Below are positions 5,192 to 34,498 of a DNA stretch of 64,000 nucleotides, piece after piece; position 1 is the first letter of the stretch; the number at the start of each line of letters is the position of its first letter. Position numbers and translations under genes: made by a program. Location of the stretch: the NCBI GenBank assembly GCA_013152535.1, contig JAADGE010000001.1, forward strand, positions 188,007 through 252,006, given 5' to 3'. Under the pieces are notes generated by a model, which was not told the origin of the DNA, did no database searches, and saw only the letters and a program-made list of their open reading frames with translations. The stretch is from Chlorobiota bacterium. GTDB lineage: Bacteria; Bacteroidota; Bacteroidia; Bacteroidales; JAADGE01.

Positions 5192-6376
5192 TTAAAATTC
5201 GGCAAGTAATTCCTGAAATTTCTCATTAGGTTTGGCGGGATCATTATTTTCACGATATTTGCTTTTTAAACCTTCAACAAAATACATATCAATTTCACCT
5301 TTATTTTTTGCAGGTATTTTACCTCTGTACGTACAAATAAAATAATCCTTTACGTATTGGTATGTTTCTCCCGAGATATTTATTTTTCCCGGTTCTCCGG
5401 CAGTTTCTAATCGACTTGCCGTATTAACAGCATCGCCCCAAATATCGTAAGCAAATTTTTTTGAACCGATAACTCCGGCAACAACCTTTCCTGTATGAAT
5501 TCCCAATCTCAATTCCCAAACTGTGTAACCTTTCGCTTTTCTGAGTGTATTATATTCTTTCATAAATCGCTGGATTTCCATCGCAGCCAAAACAATATCA
5601 ATAGGATTACTTTTATTTCTGAGCGGAAGTCCGCCTACACACATATAAGCATCTCCGATTGTTTTGATTTTTTCAATGAAATGATTTTCGGTAATTTCAT
5701 CAAATTTTCTGAAATAAACACCAAGTTCTTTAATAATATCCTCAGGTTCAAGTATTGAAGAAATCTTTGTAAAATCTTTAAAATCGGTAAACATAATTGT
5801 TACCATTCGATATTTTTTTGCGTTTACCTGTCCTTTATTTTTAAGTTGTTCAGCAATTTCGTATGGCAAAATATTTTGCAACAGTTCATCGGTTTTATTT
5901 TTTTCAATTTCTAATTGTTCATTCTTTTTCTCTAATTCGGTAGTTTTTGAAGCCAAATCTTCAGCTTGTCCGGTTATTCCTTCAATTAATTTAAATAAAG
6001 CCAGTAACGATTTTACCCTAACCGTAAGTTCCAATTTATCAAAAGGTATTTTCAAAAAATCACCGGCACCGAACATCACAGCTCTTTCAATATCTTTGTT
6101 GCTGCTTGACATTACTAATACCGGTATCTGCATTGACAATTCAAATTCTCTTAAATCCATTAATAAATCCAGACCTTTTGTATCTTCTCCGTAATCAATA
6201 TCCAGCAAAATAATATCAGGTTTTTGATCTTCAATAATATCAAAAACTTCACCGGATATTTTGGTTGCAGCAATAAAATAAGATTGAGCTTCAGCTTTAA
6301 AACTGTTTTTAATAATATTAATTATTTTTTTATTATCAGAAACAGTAAGAATTATATATTCAGAAAGATTAATCAT
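5192..6376 (-). CDS. Response regulator with class III adenylate/guanylate cyclase output
   Basis: The protein of 394 residues has a receiver domain (residues 6-125) with phosphoacceptor Asp59 in IILLDIDYG and conserved Lys109 in FLKIPF. A coiled coil (about 138-165) links it to a class III nucleotide cyclase catalytic domain (about 190-375). The two metal-binding aspartates are in MFTDFKDFT and GDAYMCVGG. The IWGDAVNTASRLE block carries the aspartate that favours ATP and the transition-state Asn and Arg, so adenylate cyclase activity is likely. No partner kinase is adjacent. It is divergent from prfB and probably leads the namZ transcript. Confidence 0.9.
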   Translation of the reverse strand: MINLSEYIILTVSDNKKIINIIKNSFKAEAQSYFIAATKISGEVFDIIEDQKPDIILLDIDYGEDTKGLDLLMDLREFELSMQIPVLVMSSSNKDIERAVMFGAGDFLKIPFDKLELTVRVKSLLALFKLIEGITGQAEDLASKTTELEKKNEQLEIEKNKTDELLQNILPYEIAEQLKNKGQVNAKKYRMVTIMFTDFKDFTKISSILEPEDIIKELGVYFRKFDEITENHFIEKIKTIGDAYMCVGGLPLRNKSNPIDIVLAAMEIQRFMKEYNTLRKAKGYTVWELRLGIHTGKVVAGVIGSKKFAYDIWGDAVNTASRLETAGEPGKINISGETYQYVKDYFICTYRGKIPAKNKGEIDMYFVEGLKSKYRENNDPAKPNEKFQELLAEF

Positions 6377-13032: not shown

Positions 13033-13812
13033 ATGAGATTAAAATTAAACTTATCCGTATTAAGCAAACATGCTGAAATACCTGTTAATTATCAATACGA
13101 ACTTTCATCTTGGATTTATAAAACTCTCAATTTCGGAAATCCTGAATTTTCGGATTGGTTGCATTCAGAAGGTTATTTAAACGAAAACAAACAATTTAAA
13201 CTTTTTACTTTCTCTCGTTTACTGATTCCTAAATACAAAATAAACGGTAACAGATTAAAAATTCTTTCTGATGAAATTTCGCTTATTGTTTCTTTTTTAC
13301 CGGATAAAGCAATTGAAACATTTGTTACAGGCATATTTAAACATCAAAAATTCGGAATCGGAGACAAACAAAGTCGTGCTGTTTTTACCATAAAATCTGT
13401 GGAACGAACACCAGAACCTGAATTCTCAAATAAAATGAAATATTCTTGCCTTTCACCTGTTTTTATCGATAAAATTATTGACGGCAAAACACATAAAAAA
13501 CATTTATCACCTGCCGATGACAGTTTTGAGGAATTATTCTCAAATAATTTAATATCAAAGTTGCTTGCAAACGATAGATTTTCAGAACTAAATCCCGGGA
13601 AAGTAAGGATTATCATTAACGGAAAAGGTAAAAAAAACGGTGTTTTAATAAAAGCCGGAACACCCCAAGAAACACATCTTATTGCCTATATGTTCGATTT
13701 TGAATTACAAGCTCCTGTTGAATTGCAACGCATCGGCTATTATGCCGGTTTCGGCAGGTTAAACTCGCAGGGTTTCGGGTGTTGTAAAATAATTCAGAAC
13801 GACCCCGGTTAG
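13033..13812 (+). CDS. cas6: CRISPR pre-crRNA endoribonuclease Cas6
   Basis: Cas6 cuts the pre-crRNA in each repeat and leaves an 8-nt 5' tag. For this array that tag would be AUUGAAAC. The 259-residue protein has a first RAMP fold opening with MRLKLNLSV and NYQYELSSWIYKTL (about residues 19-32). It ends with the glycine-rich loop GYYAGFGRLNSQGFGCC (about 235-251), the hallmark of Cas6. His13 or another N-terminal histidine may be catalytic. The gene starts the cas locus and is followed 41 bases later by the WYL regulator. Confidence 0.93.
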   Translation: MRLKLNLSVLSKHAEIPVNYQYELSSWIYKTLNFGNPEFSDWLHSEGYLNENKQFKLFTFSRLLIPKYKINGNRLKILSDEISLIVSFLPDKAIETFVTGIFKHQKFGIGDKQSRAVFTIKSVERTPEPEFSNKMKYSCLSPVFIDKIIDGKTHKKHLSPADDSFEELFSNNLISKLLANDRFSELNPGKVRIIINGKGKKNGVLIKAGTPQETHLIAYMFDFELQAPVELQRIGYYAGFGRLNSQGFGCCKIIQNDPG

Positions 13813-13853
13813 ATTTCTGCTTTGAAACTAATAAACCGATATAATAAAATACT

Positions 13854-14768
13854 ATGGCAGAAGCATCGCAAAGAAAATTAAGACAAATGTTGGCTTTGCT
13901 GACTATGCTTAACAGCAAATTCGGAAGAAGCAAAAAATCTCTTGCCGTACATTTTGATTGTTCCGTTAAAACAATCGGGCGATATATCAACACTTTCAAA
14001 GATGTGGGTTTTGTAATTGATAAAAATGACGATTTATTGAAAATTAACAAAGAAGAATCGGAATACAAAGATTTAAGCGAACTTCTGCATTTTTCGGAAG
14101 ATGAATCTTTAATTCTTACAAATGCCATAAAGTCCATTGATGCGACAAACGAACTGAAAGAACAACTGAAAAAAAAGCTTTATTCGATTTATAATTTTGA
14201 CCGTGTGGCAACGCCTGTTGTTAAAAAACATAACAAAAGAGTGGTTCAAAAATTAATAAAAGCAATATCGGATAAAAAACAAGTGAAACTGATAAAATAC
14301 CGCTCGGCAAACAGCCAAAATATTTCCGACAGAGTTACGGAACCTTTCGATTTTACGCAAAATTACACTTCTGTTTGGGCTTATGAACCCGAATCGGGTA
14401 TTTGTAAGACTTTTAAAATAAACCGAATTACAAATATTGAAATTCTAAATCAAAAACAAGCATTTCCCGAAAATCATAAAAAAAGCAATCTCGATGTTTT
14501 CAGAATGAACGGCAATGAAAAAATCCCTATAAAACTACGATTAAGCATAAAAGCTTACAATCTTTTAATTGAAGAATATCCGCGTGCAGAAATCTTTACA
14601 AAAAAAGCAAAAAACAATCACTATATTTTTGAAACCGAAGTAACAAGTCTTTTCGGAATAAGACGTTTTATTCTCGGACTGCCCGCCGATATTGAAATCA
14701 TTCAACCGCAAAAGCTTAAAGATTATATTGTTTCGGAAATGAAGAAGGGAATTGAGAGGTTCGGATAA
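13854..14768 (+). CDS. WYL-domain transcriptional regulator of the CRISPR locus
   Basis: The 304-residue protein has an N-terminal winged helix-turn-helix (about residues 10-65, SLAVHFDCSVKTIGRYINTF). A WYL domain spans about 135-210 (VKLIKYRSANS...), and a C-terminal WCX-like region follows. WYL regulators are frequent in cas loci and can respond to nucleic-acid ligands. It is placed between cas6 and the divergent promoter that drives the effector operon. A terminator-like hairpin follows the gene, so cas6 and this regulator form their own transcript. Its operator is not known. The direct repeat described at 14955 and 15067 is an alternative candidate site for it. Confidence 0.88.
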   Translation: MAEASQRKLRQMLALLTMLNSKFGRSKKSLAVHFDCSVKTIGRYINTFKDVGFVIDKNDDLLKINKEESEYKDLSELLHFSEDESLILTNAIKSIDATNELKEQLKKKLYSIYNFDRVATPVVKKHNKRVVQKLIKAISDKKQVKLIKYRSANSQNISDRVTEPFDFTQNYTSVWAYEPESGICKTFKINRITNIEILNQKQAFPENHKKSNLDVFRMNGNEKIPIKLRLSIKAYNLLIEEYPRAEIFTKKAKNNHYIFETEVTSLFGIRRFILGLPADIEIIQPQKLKDYIVSEMKKGIERFG

Positions 14769-14913: not shown

Positions 14914-14937
14914 AAAAAAAGCCTCTTTAAAAGAGGC
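14914..14937 (-). terminator. Rho-independent terminator of the crRNA-like RNA
   Basis: On the minus strand the stem GCCTCTT/AAGAGGC (7 perfect pairs, 14937-14931 with 14927-14921) is followed by seven T residues (14920-14914). The stem begins exactly where the second repeat-like segment loses its homology to the array repeat. The plus strand has no T-run here, so the direction is clear. Confidence 0.85.
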
Positions 14938-14962
14938 AATTCCAAAATGGTACGATTAATTT
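14933..14962 (-). repeat. Degenerate CRISPR repeat copy (distal)
   Basis: The core 14937-14959 matches the array repeat on the opposite strand at 22 of 23 positions. The only change is at 14952. The three bases at the 3' side (minus sense) that would form the end of the tag are replaced by the terminator stem. Confidence 0.9.
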
Positions 14963-14975
14963 AATCTAATTAACT

Positions 14976-15005
14976 TTTTCAATTCCAAAATGGTTCGATT
15001 TATTA
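14976..15005 (-). repeat. Degenerate CRISPR repeat copy (proximal)
   Basis: Positions 14977-15000 match the array repeat at 23 of 24 bases (difference at 14995). The 5' end in minus sense (15001-15005) is diverged. The last tag base is A instead of C, the same change as in the terminal repeat of the array. Confidence 0.9.
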
Positions 15006-15010
15006 AAATA

Positions 15011-15018
15011 CAAAATTA
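15011..15018 (-). promoter_or_regulatory. -7 box of the crRNA-like RNA gene
   Basis: TAATTTTG on the minus strand fits TAnnTTTG. It would place the transcription start at about 15004-15006, at the very beginning of the first repeat copy. Only a weak T-rich -33 element is seen near 15035-15040. Confidence 0.6.
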
Positions 15019-15066: not shown

Positions 15067-15090
15067 ATTAATTTAATCTACTTAACTTGG
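15067..15090 (-). promoter_or_regulatory. Predicted Cascade target (operator) of the crRNA-like RNA
   Basis: 15067-15088 is identical to 14955-14976, the guide segment of the crRNA-like RNA, at 21 of 22 positions (difference at 15081). In guide sense the triplet just upstream of the protospacer is CCA (15090-15088), a plausible type I-B PAM. The RNA gene itself lacks this triplet at the same place. The site covers the -33 box of the cas8-operon promoter, so bound Cascade should block it. Confidence 0.82.
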
Positions 15091-15117
15091 TTATTTAAAT
15101 TATTTTTTATATGTTTG
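15087..15117 (+). promoter_or_regulatory. Promoter of the orf71-cas8-cas7-cas5-cas3 operon
   Basis: TTG at 15087-15089 and TATGTTTG at 15110-15117 are separated by 20 bases, matching the Bacteroidota consensus. Transcription should start near 15122, about 18 bases before the first ATG. The -33 box lies inside the predicted Cascade target. Confidence 0.72.
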
Positions 15118-15139: not shown

Positions 15140-15355
15140 ATGATGGAAAAAGTAATTTATGTAGATTTTGAGAATTTTAAAACAAAGAAACAAGTTGAAT
15201 TTCAAATAAATAAAAGAATTAAAGACCTTAAAAAAATGAATTTTTCAAATACTGAAATCTATAAGATTATTTTTGATGATAATAATTTTAGAACTAATTT
15301 TTTAGAAAATATTAATTTTTATCAATTAAAAGAAAAATATAAGGTGCTTTTATAA
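15140..15355 (+). CDS. Small protein of unknown function, first gene of the effector operon
   Basis: This 71-residue protein is the first frame after the operon promoter and ends 18 bases before cas8. It is charged and probably helical in its middle (QINKRIKDLKKMNFSNTEIY), with no cysteine, signal peptide or membrane segment. The helix pattern with NTEIYKIIF faintly recalls a small DNA-binding fold, but I cannot assign a family. Two adjacent ATGs (15140 and 15143) could start it. Its place between an autoregulated promoter and cas8 suggests a Cas accessory or regulatory protein, or a leader that tunes cas8 translation. Confidence 0.6.
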   Translation: MMEKVIYVDFENFKTKKQVEFQINKRIKDLKKMNFSNTEIYKIIFDDNNFRTNFLENINFYQLKEKYKVLL

Positions 15356-15358
15356 TAA

Positions 15359-16777
<1,419 letters not shown>

Positions 16778-16789
16778 AATATCAAGAAA

Positions 16790-17884
16790 ATGAAAAATTT
16801 AAAAACACAAGGATTTGTCTTATTAGACGTAGATGTTGTTGCATTAAATAATGCAGGAAAAAGTAATTCAACAAAATTTGACAATGCTGTTGCCACAAAG
16901 AAAATTTTCAAAAACGGAAAATCGTATGTTTATGTTTCCGGACAGGCATGGCGGTATTGGTGGAGAGATTCTTTGCAAAGAAACTTAGGATGGGAGGTAT
17001 CACTGATTACACGAGATAAAAAGATTGCTTTCACAAATGCAAATCCAATTAAGTTTCCCGATGATGATGTTTTCGGATACATGAAAGCCGCAAAAGATGT
17101 TATCCGTGACATAGACGGAAATCCTGTTTTGGATTCAAAGGGTAAAGAGAAAACAGAAAATGTAACCGTAACTCGAATTTCGCCTCTGAAAAATACAGCT
17201 ATTGTTTCTGTCGCATCGGTAAGACCTGAGGAGAATTGGTCGAGCATGGCAAGGCAAGAGGGCGATTCTGTTCCATACGGAAAAGAGGAATATAGTGCCA
17301 TTATGAAAGGCATGTTTAGTTTGGATTTGGCACAAGTAGGCACGTTTTCAAATTATAACAAAACAGGTTATGTTAATCTTTCAGAAAAACTGCAAGCAGA
17401 AGCATTAGAAAACGGATTAGTTACAGAAGTTGAAGATAACTTTATAAAAGATGCGAAAGGAAATCCGCACAAATTAGCTCGTTTGGATAAAGGAATTAGA
17501 GTAAAACGAGCAACTGATACCATAAAAGCTCTAAAAAACATTTCCGGCGGAGCTATGCAAACCAGCAATATGGCAGATGTTACGCCAAAATTTATAATTC
17601 TTGCAACAACAAAAACCGGAAATCATCCATTCTCACATATTGCAAGCAATTCCGGTGCTTATGATGAAGTTGCAGAAATAAATATTGATGCAATACGAGA
17701 AATTCTAAATGATTACAAAGATGATTTTGAAGGCAAAATTTATATAGGGAAACGAGCCGGTTTTATGGATGAAAAAAATGATGAATTATCAAAATTAGTA
17801 AAAGAATTTGAAAATATTGAATTAATGACAGTTAATACTGCAATTGATAAATACTGTGAGCAATTAGAAACCCAAATGGATTAA
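16790..17884 (+). CDS. cas7: Type I-B Cascade backbone subunit Cas7 (Cst2/DevR family)
   Basis: Cas7 forms the helical backbone that holds the crRNA spacer. The 364-residue protein opens with KTQGFVLLDVDVVALNNAG, the RRM-type first strand of the Cst2/DevR family. It continues with SYVYVSGQAWRYWWRDSL (about residues 44-61), a conserved block of the family. Near residue 250, NISGGAMQTSNMADVTPKF corresponds to the thumb region. It lies 2 bases upstream of cas5 and 12 bases after cas8, so the effector subunits are translated from one message. Confidence 0.9.
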   Translation: MKNLKTQGFVLLDVDVVALNNAGKSNSTKFDNAVATKKIFKNGKSYVYVSGQAWRYWWRDSLQRNLGWEVSLITRDKKIAFTNANPIKFPDDDVFGYMKAAKDVIRDIDGNPVLDSKGKEKTENVTVTRISPLKNTAIVSVASVRPEENWSSMARQEGDSVPYGKEEYSAIMKGMFSLDLAQVGTFSNYNKTGYVNLSEKLQAEALENGLVTEVEDNFIKDAKGNPHKLARLDKGIRVKRATDTIKALKNISGGAMQTSNMADVTPKFIILATTKTGNHPFSHIASNSGAYDEVAEINIDAIREILNDYKDDFEGKIYIGKRAGFMDEKNDELSKLVKEFENIELMTVNTAIDKYCEQLETQMD

Positions 17885-17886
17885 TT

Positions 17887-18558
17887 ATGAAAACATACCG
17901 TATAAAAATATCATCATGGACGGCAAGTTTTCGGTATCCGAATTTAATTTCAGGATTTCAGCCGACACTTGACGTTCCGCCGATTAGCACGGTATTGGGT
18001 TTACTGAATGCCGCTGCCGGCAAATATATTGAGCACTCACAACTTAAAATTGCTTATTACTTTGAATATGGCGCAAAAGCCGTTGATTTAGAAACAATTT
18101 ATCAGATTGGCATAGTAAAAGGCAAAAAAGCCCCGTCAAATTCAGTGAAATCAAATGTAATAAACAGAGAGTTTTTATTTGACTGCCGTCTTTATATTTA
18201 TCTGGAAGATAGAGAATTAGTTGAATTTCTGAAAAATCCGTATTATTCATTGATACTGGGAAGAAGCGGAGATTTGGCAACAGTAGAAAATATAGAAGAG
18301 CTTGAACTAACTGAAAATTCGATGCCTGAAAATATAAAAGGACAGATAATTCCGTTTGCAGGAAATTTTCTTGCCGGAGAAATTCAAGCATTGCCTAAAT
18401 ATTTTACAAATTCAATACCAAGAAATAATATCGGCACAGAACCGTATTCCGTAATTTCTCATAATTTAAAAAATACGGAAACAAGCTCTTTAAAAACATA
18501 TACCGATATTATTGATGACAAAGAAGTTGATATTTATTTTCATGAATTAGAGTTTTGA
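17887..18558 (+). CDS. cas5: Type I-B Cascade subunit Cas5 (Cas5t)
   Basis: Cas5 caps the 5' tag of the crRNA and contacts Cas8. The 223-residue protein begins with the diagnostic Cas5 N-terminus: TYRIKISSWTASFRYPNLIS, then QPTLDVPPISTVLGLLNAAA (about residues 26-45), which is the PP-containing helix typical of Cas5t. The length is normal. It follows cas7 by 2 bases and precedes cas3 by 4 bases. The crRNA-like regulatory RNA would use the same subunit through its nearly identical tag. Confidence 0.92.
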   Translation: MKTYRIKISSWTASFRYPNLISGFQPTLDVPPISTVLGLLNAAAGKYIEHSQLKIAYYFEYGAKAVDLETIYQIGIVKGKKAPSNSVKSNVINREFLFDCRLYIYLEDRELVEFLKNPYYSLILGRSGDLATVENIEELELTENSMPENIKGQIIPFAGNFLAGEIQALPKYFTNSIPRNNIGTEPYSVISHNLKNTETSSLKTYTDIIDDKEVDIYFHELEF

Positions 18559-18562
18559 ATTG

Positions 18563-20803
18563 ATGATACTTGCAAAATCAAATCCAAAATCCACATTGCA
18601 GGAACATATTAATGACGCATTGCAAATTGCAAATGTTTTGAAACAATCTTTTACAAATATTACGTCATTAATTCCGGAAGAAGAATTTTGGGAATTGTTA
18701 CGAATAAGTATTATTTTTCATGATTTAGGAAAATCACACAATGAGTTTCAGAAAATACTGCAAGGACAAACAAATAATTCGTGGAATTCCCAACGTCACG
18801 AATTATTTTCACTACCGTTTGTAAAAGCATTAAATATCAAAAATAAAGATTTGATATACAATGTAGTTGCAGGTCATCATAAAGATTACGAGAAATTAAT
18901 TGAAAAACTAAACGAATATGGAGAAGACGATGATTTTGATTTAGACGGAATAGAAGAAATTTTAACTTTTGAAAAAGCTTTTAAACAAAACATACCTGTT
19001 AAAGATGTTACTTCAATTTTGAGCGAGTATGAAATTCAAATTTCAGAACCAATTATCCATAATCCGAAAAGAATATTACAGCAGTTCAAACAAAAATCTT
19101 TTACAGATTATTCCGAGTTAATCAAACTGCTGTTACTTGCCGGAGCTTTTAAGCAATGCGACCACTTGGCATCGGCAGGTATTCGAGAAATTAAGCATTT
19201 AGAAATTTCAGATTTTCAATATCTTTATGAAACAGACTACGATTTTTACACTCATCAGCAAAAATCATCTAAAATTATAGGAAATGCAATACTTACAGCC
19301 CCAACCGGTTCAGGTAAAACAGAAAGTTCTTTGCTCTGGCTTCAAAATCAGTTGAAAAAAACAGGAAACGGACGTGTTTTTTATATTTTGCCTTTCACAG
19401 CATCAATAAATGCAATGTATGAAAGGTTGAACAATGACATTCCTGAAAAAGTAGGTTTGGTTCACGGAAAATTATCAGCCTTTATTGAAAATAAATTTAA
19501 AGATGACGATTTAATTGATGAACAAAAGAAAAAAGAAATCAAAGACCAATTTAAAAATCTTATAACACCTTTAAAAGTTGTTACGCCGTTTCAGTTGCTT
19601 AAAAATATTTTTGCTTTACGTGGTTTTGAAAAAGGAATTTTTGAATGGGCAGGCGGATATTTTATTTTTGATGAAATTCATGCCTATAATCCTTCCGTTT
19701 TCGCCCAAATAATTGTGCTTTTGGAATTTACAACAAAATATCTTAATGTAAAAGCATTTATTATGACTGCCACTTTACCAAAATTTATTAGAAATGAATT
19801 GGAAAATGCCATAGGTGATTTTGAAACAGTAAAAGCTGATAATGCATTATACGAGAATTTCAAACGTCATAGAATTATTGTTAAAAATGGTAAATTAAAT
19901 GAAAATTTACAATTAATTCAGAATGCTTTATCCGAGGAAAAGAAAGTATTGTTAGTTTGCAATACAGTAAAACAAGCACAAAATATTTATAAATCATTGG
20001 AAAGCAAAAATAAAGTATTGTTGCACAGTTCGTTTAATGCTTTTGACAGAAACAAAAAAGAAAAGCTTGTTTTTAATGAAAATACAAAATTATTAGTCGG
20101 AACACAGGCGATAGAAGTCAGTTTAGACATTGATTATGATATTATTTTTACAGAACCCGCACCGCTTGATGCTCTTATTCAGCGTTTTGGACGAGTAAAC
20201 AGGAAAAGAAAAAAAAGCATTAGTGATTGTATTGTTTTTGAGGGAAGAAATAAATCAGACAAATTTATCTATAAAAACAAAGGTGTAATTGATAGAACAA
20301 TTCAAATTTTAAAAGAAAAAGAACAAATAAATTCCGGAAAAATTAATGAAGCTGAACTTCAAGAAATGATAGATTTTGTTTATCCGGAATGGGATAAAAC
20401 GGATAAAGATGAATTTGATTTGATTTATAATTTGCTTGATAATTTTATTAAAAAAGAATTAAAACCTTTTATTTATAATTCAAAACAAGAAGAAGATTTT
20501 TACAACCAATTTGATGGTGTTAAAGTGTTGCCTATTAAATTTTCAGATGTTTATCAAAAATATTTACAAGAAAACAAATTTGTAAAAGCAGAAAGCTTAA
20601 AAGTTCAGATTAGTGAGAAACGATTTCATTTATTAAATTATAAAAATGGTATTGAAAAAGAGAGAACTGTTTTTGAAAGTATTAGAACTGAAAAAATATT
20701 AGAACAGCAGTTTTTTACAATTTCAAAAAAATATGACTCTGAATTAGGCTTGTTAATAGATGAAGATGAGGATGTTTTTTTTGATAATAATCAATATATT
20801 TAA
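18563..20803 (+). CDS. cas3: CRISPR-associated helicase-nuclease Cas3
   Basis: Cas3 is recruited by Cascade, nicks the displaced strand with its HD domain and degrades DNA while translocating. The protein of 746 residues starts MILAKSNPKS. I prefer this ATG to the TTG one codon earlier, because the decayed copy at 21908 starts at the same place. HD motifs are His15, His53-Asp54 (IIFHDLGKSH) and HH in VAGHHKDYE. Helicase motifs are APTGSGKTESS (I, near 247), FDEIHAYNP (II), MTATLP (III) and QRFGRVNRK (VI). All key residues appear intact, so the system is probably active. Confidence 0.95.
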   Translation: MILAKSNPKSTLQEHINDALQIANVLKQSFTNITSLIPEEEFWELLRISIIFHDLGKSHNEFQKILQGQTNNSWNSQRHELFSLPFVKALNIKNKDLIYNVVAGHHKDYEKLIEKLNEYGEDDDFDLDGIEEILTFEKAFKQNIPVKDVTSILSEYEIQISEPIIHNPKRILQQFKQKSFTDYSELIKLLLLAGAFKQCDHLASAGIREIKHLEISDFQYLYETDYDFYTHQQKSSKIIGNAILTAPTGSGKTESSLLWLQNQLKKTGNGRVFYILPFTASINAMYERLNNDIPEKVGLVHGKLSAFIENKFKDDDLIDEQKKKEIKDQFKNLITPLKVVTPFQLLKNIFALRGFEKGIFEWAGGYFIFDEIHAYNPSVFAQIIVLLEFTTKYLNVKAFIMTATLPKFIRNELENAIGDFETVKADNALYENFKRHRIIVKNGKLNENLQLIQNALSEEKKVLLVCNTVKQAQNIYKSLESKNKVLLHSSFNAFDRNKKEKLVFNENTKLLVGTQAIEVSLDIDYDIIFTEPAPLDALIQRFGRVNRKRKKSISDCIVFEGRNKSDKFIYKNKGVIDRTIQILKEKEQINSGKINEAELQEMIDFVYPEWDKTDKDEFDLIYNLLDNFIKKELKPFIYNSKQEEDFYNQFDGVKVLPIKFSDVYQKYLQENKFVKAESLKVQISEKRFHLLNYKNGIEKERTVFESIRTEKILEQQFFTISKKYDSELGLLIDEDEDVFFDNNQYI

Positions 20804-21306: not shown

Positions 21307-21328
21307 GGTAATAATTCAATTGATAATT

Positions 21329-21793
21329 ATGGCAAATACATATACGCAAATGAATGTCCATGCGGTTTTTGCAGTAAAAGGCAGACAAAATTTATTGACA
21401 GATAATTTCAGAAAAGAATTGTTCAGGTATATATCCGGAATATTGAAAAATAACAAACAATTCTCGTTAGCCGTAAATGGTTATAAAGACCATGTGCATA
21501 TTTTCTTTGAGTTACATCCTACTACTTCTTTATCTGATATTATCAGAATAGTAAAAACAAATTCTTCAAAATGGATAAACGAAAATAATTTTACCAAAGG
21601 AAAATTTAATTGGCAAAAAGGTTACGGAGCCTTTTCTTATTCAAAATCTCAAAGAAACAATGTAATAAAATACATTATGCAACAAGAAAAACATCATCAA
21701 AAACAAACATTTCGAGAAGAATATTTTGAATTGCTTGAAAAATTTGAAATACAATTTGACAGTAAATATATTTTTGAATTTTATAATAAATAA
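21329..21793 (+). CDS. IS200-family HUH transposase (TnpA / REP-associated)
   Basis: The 154-residue protein starts MANTYTQMNVHAVFAVKG, the usual opening of Bacteroidota IS200-like transposases. The HUH metal motif is His55-Val-His57 (KDHVHIFFEL). The nucleophilic tyrosine is Tyr115 in NVIKYIMQQEKHH. The enzyme cuts and joins single-stranded DNA at hairpins. All catalytic residues and the usual length are present, so it looks functional. No TnpB partner is present. The start at 21329 is chosen because it matches the family, rather than a TTG three codons upstream. Confidence 0.92.
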   Translation: MANTYTQMNVHAVFAVKGRQNLLTDNFRKELFRYISGILKNNKQFSLAVNGYKDHVHIFFELHPTTSLSDIIRIVKTNSSKWINENNFTKGKFNWQKGYGAFSYSKSQRNNVIKYIMQQEKHHQKQTFREEYFELLEKFEIQFDSKYIFEFYNK

Positions 21794-21858: not shown

Positions 21859-21907
21859 TTTTTATCGAAAAAAAACAATGACATATATTTATCGTAATAC
21901 AGCAACA

Positions 21908-22270
21908 ATGAAAATATTTGCTAAATCAAATCCCGAAGCAATACTTCAAGAACATATTAACGACACATTATTAATCGCAGATGTTTTAAGAAAATCATTT
22001 ACAAATATTGTGTCATCAGTTGATGCAGAAAATTTTCGGACGCTTCTGCGAACAAGTGTAATTTTTCGTGATTTGGGAAAATCACACAGCGAATTTCAAA
22101 AATACGAACTTAAACAAATGTATTCTGCTGATTTTAAAGACAATGTAGTTGCAAGCAAGGCTTTTTTCAAAAATTCAAAAAAAGTATTTATGCAATATCT
22201 GAAATTTTCGAACAAAAAAGAATATTGTAATACAAACAGTATTCAGAACTTTCTAATATCAATAAATTAG
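21908..22270 (+). pseudogene. Decayed cas3 HD-domain fragment
   Basis: The first 68 codons are clearly paralogous to the N-terminus of the complete cas3: KSNP, LQEHIND, FTNI, DLGKSH and EFQK align without gaps of note, and about two thirds of residues are identical. The catalytic His-Asp pair is changed to Arg54-Asp55 (VIFRDLGKSH), which should kill nuclease activity. After residue 68 the similarity is lost, and the helicase is absent. It lies just beyond the IS200-like element. It may be left from an older cas3 gene replaced or duplicated in this locus. Confidence 0.8.
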
Positions 22271-22299: not shown

Positions 22300-24003
22300 A
22301 TGAACATAAATAATTTCAAAAATAAAATTAACCCCGTAATATTTGAAAGAGGCGAAAATTATTATTTCGATAATGCAGTTGTTGATTTGCAAGGCACGGA
22401 AAACGGGCAATGGTTTGCTCTTGTTGAAGGCAGCTATGCTGATGATTATGAGGTTGATATAAAGATTAATTCCGACGGCGAAATTCAGAAGTACTATTGC
22501 AATTGTCCGTATGACGGAGCAATCTGCAAGCATGTTGTTGCCGTATTGCTGAAAATTAAAGATGAAAAACAAATTACGGGAACCGAAGTAAAAAATAAAA
22601 AAGAAGCATGGAAAGAAATTGCGGATAATGTACCCGAAAACGAACTTCGTGAATTTATTAAAAAATATGCCGCAAAAAATTCTGACTTCCGTAATGATTT
22701 AACCGTACGTTTTTCGGAATACAGCAATTCAGATACCGGCGACATATACCGTCATACAGTGCAAAATATATTTTTCTCGGCAGGAGGCAAATACGGTTTT
22801 ATAGATTATAATCATATCTATACTGCTATGAGACAAATAGACAGTTTATTATATAATGCAGAAGATTTAATTAAAGAAAAAAAACATAAAGAAGCCTTTC
22901 GGATTGTTTCCGCAATTGCTCCGGAGTGTATTAATAATATAGAAAATATTGATGATTCAAACGGTGAGTGCGGAGGAGCAATATATCGTTCGTTTGAACT
23001 TGTTTCAAAAATACTTAAATTATCAGATGACGAAACATTTAAAAATGAAGTATTTGAATGGATTTTTGAACAAGCACAAAATAAGAACTATAACGATTAC
23101 GGATGCGGAGATGAACTTGAACCTTTGCTGATTGAAGCATGTGATAACCGGCATAAAATTAACATTGTCCATGAATTTATTGATAAAAAATTAAAACAGA
23201 CAGAAAGCAGAGATGATTGGTCAGGGAATTATCAAAAAACAAAATATCTGAAACATAAAGTAAAATTATACAACATATCCGACGAAACAAAAAAAGCCGA
23301 TAAAATTATATATGATAATATTAACCTTACCGATTTCAGAAAAATAATTGTTGACAGGAAAATTAATGACAAAAACTATAAAGAAGCCGTAAATCTTATT
23401 GAAGAAGGGATTAAAATTGCAACAAAAGATAATCTTTCCGGAATTACAATACAATGGAAAGAAACATTATTGAAAATTTATCAAGAACTAAAAGATATAA
23501 AAAATATAAAAAAATATGCCGAAGAATTGTTTTTCAGCGGTTGGAACGATATGTCCTATTATAAAATTCTTAAAGAAATTTGGAAACCGGAAGATAAAGA
23601 AATTGAAAAACTACTGAAAAAAAATCCGAAACAAGGAAACTATTATTATTCACTTCCTGTTTCTGTTGCAAATATTTACATCGAAGAAAAGATGTGGGAC
23701 AGGCTTTTTGAATTAGTCAAACAAAATCCGAGAATAAATACATTACTGACGTACACACAATATTTGAAAGAATTATATCCTTCTGAATTGATAAAATTGT
23801 TCAAGACTGCAATTGAAAAATTTGCAGATAAAAATACAGGTCGCTCTGCCTACAAAGATATAGTAGATTATTTATATAAAATGTCAGAAATTAAAGATGC
23901 AAAAGATGAAGCAAAGAACATAATGCACGGATTATTAGATAAATATAAAAACAGACCGGCAATGAAAGATGAATTTATGAAATCGTCATTTTATAAAAAA
24001 TAA
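22300..24003 (+). CDS. SWIM zinc-finger protein in the cas locus
   Basis: This 567-residue protein has a SWIM zinc finger near residues 50-80: CNCPYDGAICKHVVAVLL gives the CxCx(n)CxH pattern. SWIM domains bind DNA or proteins. The remainder (about 90-567) is helical with TPR-like features and no catalytic motif that I recognise. No signal peptide or membrane segment is present. It lies between the cas3 relic and cas4, 12 bases upstream of cas4 in the same direction, so it is very likely co-expressed with the adaptation genes. It is not a standard Cas protein. Confidence 0.8.
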   Translation: MNINNFKNKINPVIFERGENYYFDNAVVDLQGTENGQWFALVEGSYADDYEVDIKINSDGEIQKYYCNCPYDGAICKHVVAVLLKIKDEKQITGTEVKNKKEAWKEIADNVPENELREFIKKYAAKNSDFRNDLTVRFSEYSNSDTGDIYRHTVQNIFFSAGGKYGFIDYNHIYTAMRQIDSLLYNAEDLIKEKKHKEAFRIVSAIAPECINNIENIDDSNGECGGAIYRSFELVSKILKLSDDETFKNEVFEWIFEQAQNKNYNDYGCGDELEPLLIEACDNRHKINIVHEFIDKKLKQTESRDDWSGNYQKTKYLKHKVKLYNISDETKKADKIIYDNINLTDFRKIIVDRKINDKNYKEAVNLIEEGIKIATKDNLSGITIQWKETLLKIYQELKDIKNIKKYAEELFFSGWNDMSYYKILKEIWKPEDKEIEKLLKKNPKQGNYYYSLPVSVANIYIEEKMWDRLFELVKQNPRINTLLTYTQYLKELYPSELIKLFKTAIEKFADKNTGRSAYKDIVDYLYKMSEIKDAKDEAKNIMHGLLDKYKNRPAMKDEFMKSSFYKK

Positions 24004-24015
24004 TAAATTGTATAA

Positions 24016-24522
24016 ATGCAACTAACCGGAACCCATATAAACTATTACTTCATCTGCTCTCGAAAATTGTGGCTCTTTACAAACGGTATCCACATGGAAC
24101 ATACTTCCGATTTGGTTTCCGAAGGCAAACTGATACACGAAACGACATATCCGCAAAGGAGCGAAAAATATGAGGAAGTACAAATAGGCGGAATAAAAGT
24201 AGATTTTTATGATACGAGAAACAAAGTCATCCATGAAATCAAAAAATCCGATAAAATTGAAGCTGCTCACGAGTGGCAATTAAAATATTACATTTATGTT
24301 TTTGAAAAAGCAGGTATTAAAGGAGTCTCAGGGATTTTAGAATATCCGAAACTCAGAAAAAAAGAGGAAATTCTTCTTTCCGACATAGACAGAGAGCAAA
24401 TTTTAGAAATTGAAAAAGAAATTGAAGAAATTACCGGCTCTGAAACTTGTCCCGATGTAATTAATTCTAAAATTTGTAAACGATGCAGTTATTATGATTT
24501 TTGTTATGCGGATGAAGATTGA
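24016..24522 (+). CDS. cas4: CRISPR adaptation nuclease Cas4
   Basis: Cas4 is a RecB-like 4Fe-4S exonuclease that trims prespacers and helps to select the PAM. The 168-residue protein has the first cluster ligand Cys14 (FICSRKLW) and the C-terminal ligands Cys154, Cys157 and Cys163 (KICKRCSYYDFC). The nuclease residues are His41, Asp63 and the ExK motif Glu74-Lys76 (HEIKKSDK). All are intact. The gene ends in the first unit of a GATTGA-type repeat tract, which separates it from cas1 together with a four-helix-bundle gene. Confidence 0.95.
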   Translation: MQLTGTHINYYFICSRKLWLFTNGIHMEHTSDLVSEGKLIHETTYPQRSEKYEEVQIGGIKVDFYDTRNKVIHEIKKSDKIEAAHEWQLKYYIYVFEKAGIKGVSGILEYPKLRKKEEILLSDIDREQILEIEKEIEEITGSETCPDVINSKICKRCSYYDFCYADED

Positions 24523-24638
24523 AGCAGATTGATTGAGATTGAAGGAGATTGAATAAGATTTATGGAGATTGAAAAAGATTGAAGCAGATTGAAGGAGATA
24601 GATTGAGATTGAAAGAGATTGAACAAATTGATTGAATT
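24517..24638. repeat. Degenerate GATTGA repeat tract, left arm of an inverted repeat
   Basis: About eleven imperfect units of the form GATTGAnn or GATTGAAGnA run from the last codons of cas4 to just before the four-helix-bundle gene. The segment 24545-24560 (GAGATTGAATAAGATT) is exactly complementary to 25052-25067 downstream of that gene, so the two tracts can fold together. Confidence 0.85.
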
Positions 24639-26373: not shown

Positions 26374-26589
26374 TTGTCGAATATTATAAAATGAGCTTTA
26401 TTTTGTATTGAAAAGTATTATAAAAAAGAAAAAAGTTCTTTGACGTATTGAAAATAAAAGCATTGCAATAGTTGTCGAAGGTAAGGCGTTTTTATATCAT
26501 TGCCGAATGACGACATTTAAGATTGATTTTTAATGAAAAATATTTTGAAATCATTGAAAATCAGTTTATTTTTGTGTCGTCATTTACGG
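26374..26589 (+). promoter_or_regulatory. CRISPR leader
   Basis: This 216-base AT-rich region lies between cas2 and the first repeat. It contains the array promoter (26544-26574) and the short direct repeat GTTGTCGAA (about 26374 and 26470), which may be part of the integration signal. I see no copy of the crRNA-like target here, so the array should escape that repression. Confidence 0.8.
26544..26574 (+). promoter_or_regulatory. Promoter of the CRISPR array
   Basis: TTTG at 26544-26547 and TATTTTTG at 26567-26574 are separated by exactly 19 bases, a full match to the Bacteroidota consensus. Transcription should start near 26580, about 10 bases before the first repeat. Confidence 0.75.
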
Positions 26590-29500
26590 CTTTTAATCGC
26601 ACCATTTTGGAATTGAAACATAAAATTTCCGATCATATAACATTTGCAGAGGCAATCTTTTAATCGCACCATTTTGGAATTGAAACTTCTAACAAATGAA
26701 TCCCATAAATTAAATGTTTTATCTCTTTTAATCGCACCATTTTGGAATTGAAACAGCGTTTTGCCGTTGAGCTGTAATAACTTTCTGTTCTTTTAATCGC
26801 ACCATTTTGGAATTGAAACATATTTCTCAGGACGGATTAATATTCTATTTTTTAAACCTTTTAATCGCACCATTTTGGAATTGAAACTTTGCATTATTAG
26901 ATTAGCTTGTTGCCTGCCGTTTCTTTTAATCGCACCATTTTGGAATTGAAACTTGTGATATGGATTATATTAGAAATTTTGAGAAGTTCTTTTAATCGCA
27001 CCATTTTGGAATTGAAACACAAGCACAACAATTTATTAGTAGAAAAATAATGCTCTTTTAATCGCACCATTTTGGAATTGAAACAAATTTGCAACAGGCG
27101 GAATAGTTGGTGGATACGGCTTTTAATCGCACCATTTTGGAATTGAAACGCCGTTAACACTATGTATAGCAAATTAAGCGGTGTACTTTTAATCGCACCA
27201 TTTTGGAATTGAAACTGCATTAACCGCCGTTTTAAAGGAATACACCGGCACTTTTAATCGCACCATTTTGGAATTGAAACTCAGGATTATGGTTTGTAAA
27301 ACTTTTGAGTAAAGTATCTTTTAATCGCACCATTTTGGAATTGAAACACGAATTAGACACATCGTCATCCGGATCAGGATTAACTTTTAATCGCACCATT
27401 TTGGAATTGAAACTAGAGAAGTACCCTCTCTTTTAAATCCGAACTGTACCTTTTAATCGCACCATTTTGGAATTGAAACTTAATAAGCCCTGTTTTTACT
27501 TCAAGTCTTGCAATCTTTTAATCGCACCATTTTGGAATTGAAACATTTGTTCATCAAAGTCTACTGTCATTTGTTCATAGCTTTTAATCGCACCATTTTG
27601 GAATTGAAACAAACATATCATTTTATTTTGTTTTATGAATAGCTTTACTTTTAATCGCACCATTTTGGAATTGAAACAGTTGAAACTGTCTAATTTTGTC
27701 CGTTACCGGATTTCTTTTAATCGCACCATTTTGGAATTGAAACACATTAGCAGATTGCCAAGATGCAAGATTATAATCAACTTTTAATCGCACCATTTTG
27801 GAATTGAAACGTGCAATTAAGGAACTCAACCGGCATAAATCAAGACTTTTAATCGCACCATTTTGGAATTGAAACGTGCAATTCAGGAACTCAACCGGCA
27901 TAAATCAAGAAAACTTTTAATCGCACCATTTTGGAATTGAAACTGGATAAAAAAAATGTGGATAAACGCGAATTTAGACCTTTTAATCGCACCATTTTGG
28001 AATTGAAACCCGGAAGAATGGTCTTTATTCCAAAATCTGTAAGTCTTTTAATCGCACCATTTTGGAATTGAAACGCGACCGATTCCGAAAACATCATTAA
28101 GACGTTCAATTACTTTTAATCGCACCATTTTGGAATTGAAACTTTGTTTTGAATTTCCTAAGTTAATATACATCTCTACTTTTAATCGCACCATTTTGGA
28201 ATTGAAACTAATTAAAGATGAAAGGGTCTCGATTTCTGTTTGTCTTTTAATCGCACCATTTTGGAATTGAAACTTTGCATTACTAAATTAGCTTGTTGCC
28301 TGCCGTTTCTTTTAATCGCACCATTTTGGAATTGAAACAATTACAGAGATATTGTAATTGATGCAATTTTTGACGCCTTTTAATCGCACCATTTTGGAAT
28401 TGAAACTTCGTATAACGTACTTCCATTGATTAATGAAGAAGACTTTTAATCGCACCATTTTGGAATTGAAACATAGATAGCGTTTCAATATTTCCTTTTG
28501 AGTAGTTACCTTTTAATCGCACCATTTTGGAATTGAAACTTGTTCTTCGCTGCCTTCACTGTCTATTTCTATATGACCTTTTAATCGCACCATTTTGGAA
28601 TTGAAACTATTTCTTTTTTAACATTTGTTGATTTTGACCAGTCTTTTAATCGCACCATTTTGGAATTGAAACAGTTTTAGAAGCACTTATTGAAATAATA
28701 TTTGAATACTTTTAATCGCACCATTTTGGAATTGAAACACGTAATTGGCGTATCATATCTTATCCGGCGAAATAACTTTTAATCGCACCATTTTGGAATA
28801 TTGAAACGCGTAATTGGTGTGTTGTATCTTATACGTCGGAATAATCTTTTAATCGCACCATTTTGGAATTGAAACTTGCTACGCAAACGGCTCTGCGTGC
28901 AGGCACTCACTTTTAATCGCACCATTTTGGAATTGAAACCCATATCCTATATATGATGTTTCGTAATCGGTAAGATACTTTTAATCGCACCATTTTGGAA
29001 TTGAAACTACTCAGCATTACCGACAATTCGCATATTAGCTTTCTTTTAATCGCACCATTTTGGAATTGAAACAAGTTTAGAAATATCTATAGGCTTCATT
29101 TCACTAATCTTTTAATCGCACCATTTTGGAATTGAAACCTGTGTGCTGCGTTCTTATATATTTGATAAGAAAGTCTTTTAATCGCACCATTTTGGAATTG
29201 AAACACGTAATTGGCGTATCATATCTTATCCGGCGAAATAACTTTTAATCGCACCATTTTGGAATTGAAACGAAGCTGGCAGGCTTTCTTAGAAAGCGAT
29301 ATTGTTCTTTTAATCGCACCATTTTGGAATTGAAACAGCGGTAGAGTCTGGAATATTAAGAAAGGTGGTAATCTTTTAATCGCACCATTTTGGAATTGAA
29401 ACATCGGTTTAATAATTATAGGTGTTGCAGCTTTAATTGTCTTTTAATCGCACCATTTTGGAATTGAAACTCGGTTGAACAGATAATATTCCGTAAAAAG

Positions 29501-32500
29501 GATGAATACTTTTAATCGCACCATTTTGGAATTGAAACTATGCCAAAGAAGATTATGTTGGCGAAATTGATTTCTTTTAATCGCACCATTTTGGAATTGA
29601 AACAATTAACAACTGCCCGGGAAAAAGATGCTTACATGCACTTTTAATCGCACCATTTTGGAATTGAAACTCGCGAATTATGTGTATCAGCCAACAAATC
29701 AGTCTTCTTTTAATCGCACCATTTTGGAATTGAAACCTTGTTGCATAAGTAATTCATTCCCTTTTGTTGAATCTTTTAATCGCACCATTTTGGAATTGAA
29801 ACCATGATTTTTTGAGCAAATAAATTTATTATCAATGACTTTTAATCGCACCATTTTGGAATTGAAACGTGCTAAAGAATTATTTAAGACATATAAATTA
29901 ACACCCTTTTAATCGCACCATTTTGGAATTGAAACACGAATAAAGATAGTATCTTATCATTGAGCAGATATCCTTTTAATCGCACCATTTTGGAATTGAA
30001 ACATTAAGATAATTATCAGTTTCCAAATTTCTATTTTCTTTTAATCGCACCATTTTGGAATTGAAACGAAGATTATCATTTTTTAATGAAAATTAAAGAC
30101 AACTTTTAATCGCACCATTTTGGAATTGAAACGTGCTGGTGCCGGACTAACTATTTCTGCGTGTTATGTCTTTTAATCGCACCATTTTGGAATTGAAACT
30201 ATTCAGCATTACCGACAATTCGCATATTAGCTTTTACTTTTAATCGCACCATTTTGGAATTGAAACTTCGCGAATGGGAAAACATACGCGGTTCGAGCGT
30301 TCTTTTAATCGCACCATTTTGGAATTGAAACACAGTTGTATCACTACCAGTTTTATCTTCCGTAAACTTTTAATCGCACCATTTTGGAATTGAAACGTAA
30401 AATCAAAATTAAAGATGAATTCTGATTTTTTATTCTTTTAATCGCACCATTTTGGAATTGAAACTTCCTTTAAAATCAATTAAAGACTTACCAAAATCAC
30501 TTTTAATCGCACCATTTTGGAATTGAAACAAAATGGAATGTTGATCAATACATCTGGAAGGCAGCTTTTAATCGCACCATTTTGGAATTGAAACAAAGAT
30601 TGTTTTAAACGAAGAAAACGCATAGCCTTCTTTTAATCGCACCATTTTGGAATTGAAACATTTGATAAGTGCCTGTATTTTTTGAAATCCTATTCTTTTA
30701 ATCGCACCATTTTGGAATTGAAACGAAAGTGGCGAAGGAACGCAAATAGCAAGCATAGACTTTTAATCGCACCATTTTGGAATTGAAACTTAATAAGGCA
30801 AAGGCACGAGATAATATGAACGTATCTTTTAATCGCACCATTTTGGAATTGAAACAAAACAATAAGTTATACAACAGTAACATCAACTTTTCTTTTAATC
30901 GCACCATTTTGGAATTGAAACTATTGTGAAAGTGGTAAAATAAAATTAATAAAAGGCTTTTAATCGCACCATTTTGGAATTGAAACAATATTATATGCTG
31001 TTTGTTCGAGTGTCGGTCCTTTCTTTTAATCGCACCATTTTGGAATTGAAACATACATCAAAGCGAATGAATATTGCTCTCGGAAAACTTTTAATCGCAC
31101 CATTTTGGAATTGAAACAGTATTACAGCTGCTGATAATTCGATTGTGGGTTTTACTTTTAATCGCACCATTTTGGAATTGAAACATAATAATTATAATAT
31201 TGATCTGTTTTGGTGTTTCCTTTTAATCGCACCATTTTGGAATTGAAACAAAAATCACAACCGGAAACGACAAAACCGGATAGGCTTTTAATCGCACCAT
31301 TTTGGAATTGAAACTCGGATATTTCATATTATAATACAAATACACCTGCCTTTTAATCGCACCATTTTGGAATTGAAACAAAAAAGCTAAGAGAGCCGTT
31401 ACTCCCGTTTTTAACTTTTAATCGCACCATTTTGGAATTGAAACATGGAGAACGTTACAAAACGAAACCTGAGAAGTGCCCTTTTAATCGCACCATTTTG
31501 GAATTGAAACATGTTGCCGTAAAAGGAAGCGAAGAAATTGAAATTTATACTTTTAATCGCACCATTTTGGAATTGAAACCAGGAACAAAGCTCACAAGTA
31601 TTAATAAGCAAAATTGCTTTTAATCGCACCATTTTGGAATTGAAACATAATAAGCGGAAAGGACAGAAATAAAAAGACCTGCGCTTTTAATCGCACCATT
31701 TTGGAATTGAAACGCCGATAAACGAATGGGATATCCAAAATCTAATTGATGACTTTTAATCGCACCATTTTGGAATTGAAACTTTTTTGACCAAAAGCCC
31801 CAAACTTCATCAATGCTGTCTTTTAATCGCACCATTTTGGAATTGAAACTTCGGTATCTCGGCGGTTTATCGGATTAAAAAGTTTTCTTTTAATCGCACC
31901 ATTTTGGAATTGAAACCTTATAAAAGCAAAAAAACAAGAACCCGAAAAACCGCTTTTAATCGCACCATTTTGGAATTGAAACGCTTGTTTTGCAACTTCT
32001 TCCGGAGAAACACCGCTTTCTTTTAATCGCACCATTTTGGAATTGAAACAAACAAAAAACAATTGTTCCGGAGAAACAAAAATTACCCTTTTAATCGCAC
32101 CATTTTGGAATTGAAACAAAGAAGCGGCTTTCAGCAAAGGATCTTTTGCATAACTTTTAATCGCACCATTTTGGAATTGAAACGCAAGTCCTTTTATAAA
32201 AGTTGCGAATACTTTGGGTTCTTTTAATCGCACCATTTTGGAATTGAAACTACAAAAACGAGAGATTTTAACAACCTCGGAGGGATCTCTTTTAATCGCA
32301 CCATTTTGGAATTGAAACCGAAATAAAATCACGAATGATATACATTATTTCTTATCTTTTAATCGCACCATTTTGGAATTGAAACAATTTACAAGAAGAA
32401 ACGAAGTAATTAATAAATATCTTTTAATCGCACCATTTTGGAATGAAACAATTTACAAGAAGAAACGAAGTAATTAATAAATATCTTTTAATCGCACCAT

Positions 32501-34498
32501 TTTGGAATTGAAACTGATATCGAAGATGCCGAAGAAATTAAATCTATTATCTTTTAATCGCACCATTTTGGAATTGAAACATATTTTTTTTCCTGATTCT
32601 GATTTCTGTCTTCAGCTTTTAATCGCACCATTTTGGAATTGAAACCAGAAATTGCCGCAATACAATCGGAACCGATACCGCAACTTTTAATCGCACCATT
32701 TTGGAATTGAAACAACGCCAAGGAGAAGTTGACGGAATTTCTCATAAAATCTTTTAATCGCACCATTTTGGAATTGAAACAAGTAAGAAAAGCTTTTTAT
32801 CGAGGTTATCTGAAGACCTTTTAATCGCACCATTTTGGAATTGAAACTTACGTCATCGGTGTACGCCCGCCTAAATCTTGGGCTTTTAATCGCACCATTT
32901 TGGAATTGAAACTCAGGAATAACCCGTGTGCAATACAACTCAATTGCTCTTTTAATCGCACCATTTTGGAATTGAAACAAGAACTTTGAAGAGTGACACC
33001 ACATTGCCGTAAACCTTTTAATCGCACCATTTTGGAATTGAAACAGCTGAAACTGTCTAATTTTGTCCGTTACCGGATTCTTTTAATCGCACCATTTTGG
33101 AATTGAAACGATCGTTAATATTAAACTCGGTTTCAAATGCTTTGCGCTTTTAATCGCACCATTTTGGAATTGAAACTTAACAGTACCGAGCATTTCGCGG
33201 CTGGCAAATTTATCTTTTAATCGCACCATTTTGGAATTGAAACAAAGTGTTAATGAATCGTAGTCATCATCTGAACTGTCTTTTAATCGCACCATTTTGG
33301 AATTGAAACTCAGTTTCATTAGTCAAAGACAATGATCCTTCGTGTCTCTTTTAATCGCACCATTTTGGAATTGAAACAATAAATAAGCAGGCAAACGTCT
33401 TGATGCTAATTCCTTCTTTTAATCGCACCATTTTGGAATTGAAACACACAGTATGGGAGTCATAAGATTAAAGGTAAAGGCGCTTTTAATCGCACCATTT
33501 TGGAATTGAAACAAAAATATAATTAGTTACTTTAAATTTTTAGATTATCTTTTAATCGCACCATTTTGGAATTGAAACTAACTATATTCGCAAGCATATA
33601 CTAAATCATTAATACTTTTAATCGCACCATTTTGGAATTGAAACAAAGATTGCTTTAAGCGAATATAACGCATTGCTTTCTTTTAATCGCACCATTTTGG
33701 AATTGAAACAAGAGCTTTGTAAAGTTACCCCTGTTTGGCGTAATCTTTTAATCGCACCATTTTGGAATTGAAACAAGAATCAGCTTGTTTATGACCGCCG
33801 ATTCCGCTTTCTCTTTTAATCGCACCATTTTGGAATTGAAACTGTTATAAGGATTCAGGGCGACAGTCCGTAAAGTTTACTTTTAATCGCACCATTTTGG
33901 AATTGAAACGCAAAAACGGGAGTATTTACATACACCACGCCGGAACTTTTAATCGCACCATTTTGGAATTGAAACTAATAAACAGAAGTCTTCGGAGAAT
34001 TGCTCACAAACTTTTAATCGCACCATTTTGGAATTGAAACAATTAAAAGTGCCTTTGCCTTTAAAATCAATCAAACTTTTAATCGCACCATTTTGGAATT
34101 GAAACCAAGGTGAGATTATTGCAGCTACTTTTATAGGTTCTTTTAATCGCACCATTTTGGAATTGAAACAAGAACTTTGTAAAGTTACCCCTGTTTGGCG
34201 TAATCTTTTAATCGCACCATTTTGGAATTGAAACTGCGAATTATCACCGGTAAACGTAAACGGAACTTTTCTTTTAATCGCACCATTTTGGAATTGAAAC
34301 ATTTGTCATAATCTTGTATATCAGAAATGTCAAAAGCTTTTAATCGCACCATTTTGGAATTGAAACAACTCTTTTAGGTTCCTTTCTCGACAGCTTACGC
34401 CGCTTTTAATCGCACCATTTTGGAATTGAAACGCGTTTATAACACTTAAACCGTTTTTTTGCTTTAAACTTTTAATCGCACCATTTTGGAATTGAAAA
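26590..34498 (+). CRISPR. Type I-B CRISPR array, 120 repeats and 119 spacers
   Basis: I counted 120 copies of a 30-base repeat that begins CTTTTAATCGCACC and ends GGAATTGAAAC. The mean period is 66 bases and spacers are about 34-39 bases. Orientation is plus: the leader and cas2 are to the left, the 3' tag would be ATTGAAAC, and the last repeat is degenerate at its end (34498). Nearly all other copies are identical. Exceptions are repeat 34 (28776-28807, two inserted bases) and repeat 89 (32421-32449, one deleted base). Several spacers are duplicated or are close variants of one another. The open frames that run through the array on either strand are products of the repeat and are not genes. 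Confidence 0.99.

Follow-up and report, generated by a model that had tools for sequence, protein, structure and literature searches.

A divergent crRNA-like gene with two degenerate repeats in a Bacteroidota type I-B cas locus probably guides repression of its own cas operon

Introduction

What is a solitary pair of degenerate CRISPR repeats doing between the cas6-WYL genes and the cas8 operon of a type I-B (Cst) locus in a Bacteroidales bacterium, on the strand opposite to that of the array? An earlier note, made from the letters of the 64,000-nucleotide stretch analysed here (the window), had described the pair as a stand-alone crRNA-like gene with a start and an end of its own. Here we show that this unit contains a guide that matches the promoter of the cas8 operon at 20 of 21 positions, and because of this match the RNA likely steers the CRISPR complex to lower its own production. 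The target (15087-15067) is absent from the earlier note and is the decisive fact. On sequence evidence we give a probability of roughly 0.83 to the reading that the unit encodes an RNA of the CreR type, by which Cascade is directed to the cas operon and represses it.

Results

The host locus

The locus holds a type I-B (Cst) set, comprising Cas8b1/Cst1, Cas7/Cst2, Cas5b, Cas3, Cas6b and Cas4-Cas1-Cas2. Cas8b1/Cst1 and Cas7/Cst2 are identified by NCBIfam. The evidence supports the earlier proposal that a Cst-type I-B locus of the Bacteroidota contains a crRNA mimic similar to CreA and CreR. The coordinates of the features are given in Table 1. Repeats of the array are spaced 64-69 nt apart, two gaps excepted, in agreement with the previous estimate of about 66, and the final repeat (34469) ends in GAAAA, as does psiR1. 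The array (26590-34498) is very long and contains repeated or near-identical spacers (27780/27845, 28709/29175 and 26858/28244) as well as damaged repeats at 28776 and 32421. A TATTTTTG box (26567-26574) located 23 bp ahead of the first repeat resembles the box of the stand-alone unit. A SWIM zinc-finger protein gene (22300-24003) lies within the cas locus between cas3 and cas4. A 130-aa ORF (21878-22270) duplicates the N-terminal part of cas3 (18560-20803; 74% identity over 194 nt) and adjoins a 157-aa ORF (21320-21793) that looks like an IS200/IS605-type transposase and is flanked by 40-bp direct repeats (21104, 21781). Downstream of cas4 we observed a 10-bp tandem repeat (GATTGAAG.A) in about 9 copies (24511-24636).

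Table 1. Positions in the window of the two-repeat unit, its target and the surrounding cas genes
Feature	Position	Strand	Basis or remark
cas6b and WYL regulator	13033-14768	+	upstream
Intrinsic terminator (stem of 7 bp, 3-nt loop, T7 tail)	14914-14937	-	
psiR2, degenerate repeat 2	14933-14962	-	23/30 against array repeat
Predicted mature 43-nt RNA (8-nt tag + 13 + 22)	14941-14983	-	inferred from repeat register, if Cas6 cuts as in the array
21-nt guide, last 8 nt within degenerate 5' end of psiR2	14955-14975	-	20/21 match to cas8 promoter, mismatch at position 7
psiS, 13-nt spacer-like segment, first part of guide	14963-14975	-	
psiR1, degenerate repeat 1, last 8 nt AUUGAAAA = 5' tag	14976-15005	-	24/30 against array repeat
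Bacteroidota -7 box (TAnnTTTG) TAATTTTG of the crRNA-like gene	15011-15018	-	consensus from PMC7366714
Protospacer in cas8-operon promoter	15067-15087	-	
PAM CCA (CCN)	15088-15090	-	CCN inferred for B. fragilis I-B (PMC9367070)
Target promoter: TTG (-33) 15087-15089, 20-bp spacing, TATGTTTG (-7) 15110-15117	15087-15117	+	
orf71, small orphan protein gene (71 aa), first in operon	15140-15355	+	codon statistics
cas8b1/cst1	15374-16777	+	NCBIfam
cas7 (cst2), cas5b, cas3, remainder of effector operon	16790-20803	+	
CRISPR array, about 120 repeats CTTTTAATCGCACCATTTTGGAATTGAAAC, 117 exact	26590-34498	+	

A two-repeat unit with its own promoter box and terminator

The unit occupies the minus strand from 15005 to 14914 and reads, in order, TAATTTTG, TATTT, TAATAAATCGAACCATTTTGGAATTGAAAA (psiR1), AGTTAATTAGATT (psiS) and AAATTAATCGTACCATTTTGGAATTGCCTC (psiR2), with a terminator of GCCTCTTTTAAAGAGGC and TTTTTTT that begins inside repeat 2. 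Both repeat copies described before were recovered, at 15005-14976 and 14962-14933, with the same 24 and 23 identities, the same start-to-start distance of 43 and the same 13-nt gap. When the intergenic region of 605 nt was shuffled 1000 times (first order), a single repeat matched at 22/30 at best, so that two such copies are far beyond chance. In the whole genome the repeat core has 119 forward matches, which belong to the array, and 2 reverse matches; the copies of the unit are the only ones outside the array genome-wide, and also the only reverse copies in the window.

The promoter-type box that had been noticed ahead of the first copy was found 5 bases from it (15018-15011), and from its position transcription is expected to start at about the first base of psiR1. 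No clear -33 box was found for this promoter, with no TTG at the right distance upstream. The terminator that had been described is likewise present (one site of this type found against 0.1 expected), but its stem begins inside the last 5 bases of the second copy rather than after it. Rfam returned no match at the position of the unit, and the RNA fold showed nothing unusual besides the terminator.

The two copies are eroded in different places. psiR1 keeps 7 of the 8 tag bases, and the reading of its tag as AUUGAAAA against AUUGAAAC was correct, whereas in psiR2 the tag is eroded to 5/8 while the first 22 nt, the handle, retain 18/22. The retained parts are thus those that would end up in the mature RNA, namely the 8-nt tag of psiR1 and the 22-nt handle of psiR2, which together with psiS give a predicted length of 43 nt compared to about 66 nt for the crRNAs of the array.

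The guide matches the promoter of the cas8 operon

The match runs from guide base 1 to base 21 on the same strand, 92 bp away. Identity begins at the boundary of tag and PAM, where the unit has AAA and the target CCA, and ends where the core of the Cas6 handle begins; because its own DNA carries AAA instead of CCN, the unit would not target itself. Across the 3.3-Mb genome, this is the only site besides the unit that agrees with the first 20 bases of the guide at two or fewer mismatches. An agreement of 19/20 was reached in none of 5000 dinucleotide shuffles and none of 20000 first-order shuffles, and CCN together with at least 17/20 occurred in one of 20000 first-order shuffles. As further controls, the best of 114 array spacers reached 15/20 and the best of 2000 AT-rich pseudo-guides 18/20.

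The main caveat to a CreR-type reading is the seed mismatch at position 7. In the CreA of H. hubeiense, repression is lost when any one of positions 1-5 and 7-11 is changed, although pairing there extends over only about 10 nt (PMC8501985). Here 9 of these 10 positions are paired, and the rule of strict pairing comes from haloarchaeal CreA.

CCA at the target fits CCN, which is the PAM reported for the related I-B system of Bacteroides fragilis and a candidate PAM for the present system. The repeat of the B. fragilis system, GTATTAATTGTACCTTATGGAATTGAAAT in the same reading direction (PMC9367070), belongs to the same family as the repeat of this array. Its protospacers, given in the opposite orientation, have G at downstream positions 2 and 3 (PMC9367070), which in our own reading of the reversed orientation corresponds to CCN on the 5' side. 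Searches for phage protospacers of the array spacers gave weak matches only (E 0.2-0.7), and those for two related arrays gave no match.

The target promoter is predicted to drive orf71 and the effector genes

Promoters of Bacteroidota have the consensus TAnnTTTG at -7 and TTTG near -33 (PMC7366714). Within the gap between cas6-WYL and cas8, TATGTTTG is the only box paired with a TTG at that distance, and the PAM and guide base 1 overlap the TTG of this -33 element. The operon predicted downstream from sequence consists of orf71, cas8b1/cst1, cas7/cst2, cas5b and cas3. We found no terminator in the 18-bp gap between orf71 and cas8, and the target promoter is therefore predicted to drive the effector genes as well.

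Codon statistics preferred the frame of orf71 over all others, and an ORF of equal length arose in none of 3000 shuffles. The protein is predicted to be all-helical. Nothing in Pfam, PADLOC or NCBIfam matched it above cut-off, it carries no KilA-N or toxin domain, and the search for homologues returned weak, scattered matches only. A single-sequence model (pLDDT 76) had no match in the PDB, poor viral matches only and no significant fold match, and the gene is absent from all related loci examined. The product of orf71 may act as a regulator or as a toxin, or it may merely be a bystander, and only a toxin would shift the unit towards CreTA/CrePA.

Related loci

We additionally compared 17 related Cas8 loci from genome collections. 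In many of these cas6 directly abuts cas8, so that there is no room for the unit at that place, and most have no unit anywhere in the stretch examined. In one relative (G571; L028, about 5656-5748) two degenerate repeats in the same orientation lie in the cas6-cas8 gap, with a -7-like box of their own, TACTTTTG; a search of that genome with the guide found no target at two or fewer mismatches. A second relative (G743), with a Cas8 that is 71% identical, carries a degenerate two-repeat unit just downstream of cas3 (L022, 8332-8429). Positions 2-19 of its guide match one site in the 5.1-Mb genome at two or fewer mismatches; this site has two and lies in the gap of 79 bp that precedes cas6. This match, with base 1 mismatched and flanked by CTT instead of a CCN PAM, was weak at first scoring and was rated higher after the genome-wide search. 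In both relatives the tag is better kept in psiR1 than in psiR2 (6/8 compared to 2/8 in G571 and 7/8 compared to 3/8 in G743).

The earlier note had made its reading depend on conservation of the paired remnants at this position, which holds weakly: G571 has a pair in the same place, but that of G743 lies elsewhere in the locus and the rest of the 17 loci have none. Such poor conservation is expected of a quickly turning-over element, and equally of a relic. The units of G571 and G743 suggest recurrent origin and turnover, and do not prove function. Among 393 genomes of the order, other short repeat pairs with repeat-like flanks turned out to be ordinary arrays with short spacers, and we found no relatives of Cas8 in plasmids and viral contigs.

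Discussion

A model of autorepression

The repeats, guide, target, promoter boxes and terminator can all be read in the DNA, as can a CCA in keeping with the PAM reported for a relative, and from these we infer how the unit might act. Its own promoter would drive leftward transcription that stops at its own terminator, and Cas6 would cut both degenerate repeats to release the 43-nt crRNA-like RNA. Loaded into Cascade, this RNA would guide the complex to the divergent promoter at 15087-15117, where binding at the CCA PAM and the 20/21 match would cover the -33 element and repress orf71-cas8-cas7-cas5-cas3. With 21 nt available before guide and target diverge, the match is probably too short for cleavage by Cas3, and the expected outcome is therefore repression rather than self-killing. 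The analogy is with the I-B system of H. hispanica, in which strong repression is seen with guides of 21-24 nt but interference and priming are lost (PMC10989794). When Cascade is tied up by array crRNAs or anti-CRISPRs, repression would be lifted and more effector made, closing a putative feedback loop.

A more elaborate version of this model, which we consider unlikely, is a compact CreR variant in which the guide is fused into repeat 2, a shortened Cascade carrying the 43-nt RNA binds without recruiting Cas3, and the promoter also gates a small toxin, orf71. If true, one RNA would set Cas levels and make the cell dependent on Cascade.

Alternative explanations

In a CreTA/CrePA-like addiction module, the RNA would be an antitoxin that mainly silences orf71, and loss or inhibition of Cascade would set this small toxin free. 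The position and nature of orf71 are compatible with this, as its codon statistics mark it as a genuine coding gene, and it is an orphan found in none of the related loci, directly downstream of the target promoter and in the cas6-cas8 gap where creTA sits in H. hispanica. The lack of a KilA-N or toxin domain and of a detectable terminator in the 18-bp gap, which leaves the effector genes under the same promoter, nevertheless make such a module unlikely. We regard it as very unlikely that the unit is a non-functional relic, consisting of two decayed array repeats and a spacer that resembles the promoter by chance; the repeats are indeed degenerate and the unit is missing in most relatives, but the match of 20/21 beside a candidate PAM has no equal elsewhere in the genome and exceeds every control, a promoter box and terminator are present, and precisely the RNA-handle parts have been retained.

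The 22 bp shared by unit and promoter are AT-rich, about 90 bp apart and next to a WYL gene, and might thus reflect local duplication of a promoter segment, or two binding sites of a regulatory protein, for example the WYL protein. The shared block spans from the tag/PAM boundary to the core of the Cas6 handle, on the strand that a guide requires, and this explanation is accordingly even less credible than a relic. Least probable of all is a Racr-like RNA anti-CRISPR decoy from a mobile element that titrates Cas proteins: solitary repeat-like RNAs of this kind are known from phages (PMC10651486), whereas this unit is embedded in the cas genes of the host, flanked by cas6-WYL and cas8, and its guide specifically matches a cas promoter.

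Comparison with known systems

On a CreR-type reading, the Bacteroidota would join the groups in which an RNA guides autorepression of cas genes, and the guide, target and PAM are directly testable. As relatives differ in the place and guide of their units and most have none, fast rise and turnover are suggested. With a spacer of only 13 nt, such units are likely to escape array finders, and other I-B loci may therefore hold more of them.

The unit resembles CreA of CreTA, a type VIII toxin-antitoxin system (PMC8501985, PMC9458426), in its two degenerate repeats, in the putative PAM beside the target, in the asymmetry by which psiR1 keeps the tag and psiR2 the handle (PMC9458426), and in its position in the cas6-cas8 gap, as in H. 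hispanica. Mature CreA RNAs carry handles of 8 nt and 22 nt (PMC8501985). Unlike CreA, the unit has no recognised toxin RNA, its target promoter is predicted to drive cas8 onward, and its match extends over about 20 nt instead of about 10-11 nt, with position 7 mismatched. In CrePA (PMC12737573) a crRNA-like RNA represses a small protein gene, as proposed here, but the protein toxin under the target promoter is of the KilA-N type, whereas orf71 has no KilA-N domain and shares one operon with cas8. The tracr-L autorepression of Cas9 (PMC8730458, PMC8616872) similarly uses a short-match guide RNA to direct the effector to its own cas promoter, although tracr-L belongs to type II and is derived from tracrRNA.

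CreR (Liu et al. 2023 Cell Host Microbe, cited in PMC12948488; reviews PMC13131331, PMC12737573) is reported for I-B, I-E and V-A. It is a mini-CRISPR RNA resembling a crRNA, partly complementary to the promoter of its own cas genes, and it guides the effector to autorepress them. The unit is, in the same way, a crRNA-like gene with two repeat-like elements outside the array and near cas genes. It differs in its Bacteroidota host with Cas8b1/Cst1, in a psiS of 13 nt and a guide that extends 8 nt into psiR2, and in that the gene is divergent, has a promoter and a terminator to itself, and targets an operon headed by an orphan ORF. CreR fits the unit better than CreA does, since the target promoter is predicted to drive the cas8 operon, no terminator having been detected ahead of cas8. 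Taken together, and judged against PMC12948488 and the two reviews, the unit appears to be a known kind of regulatory RNA in what may be a new group, the Bacteroidota, in an unusually compact form.
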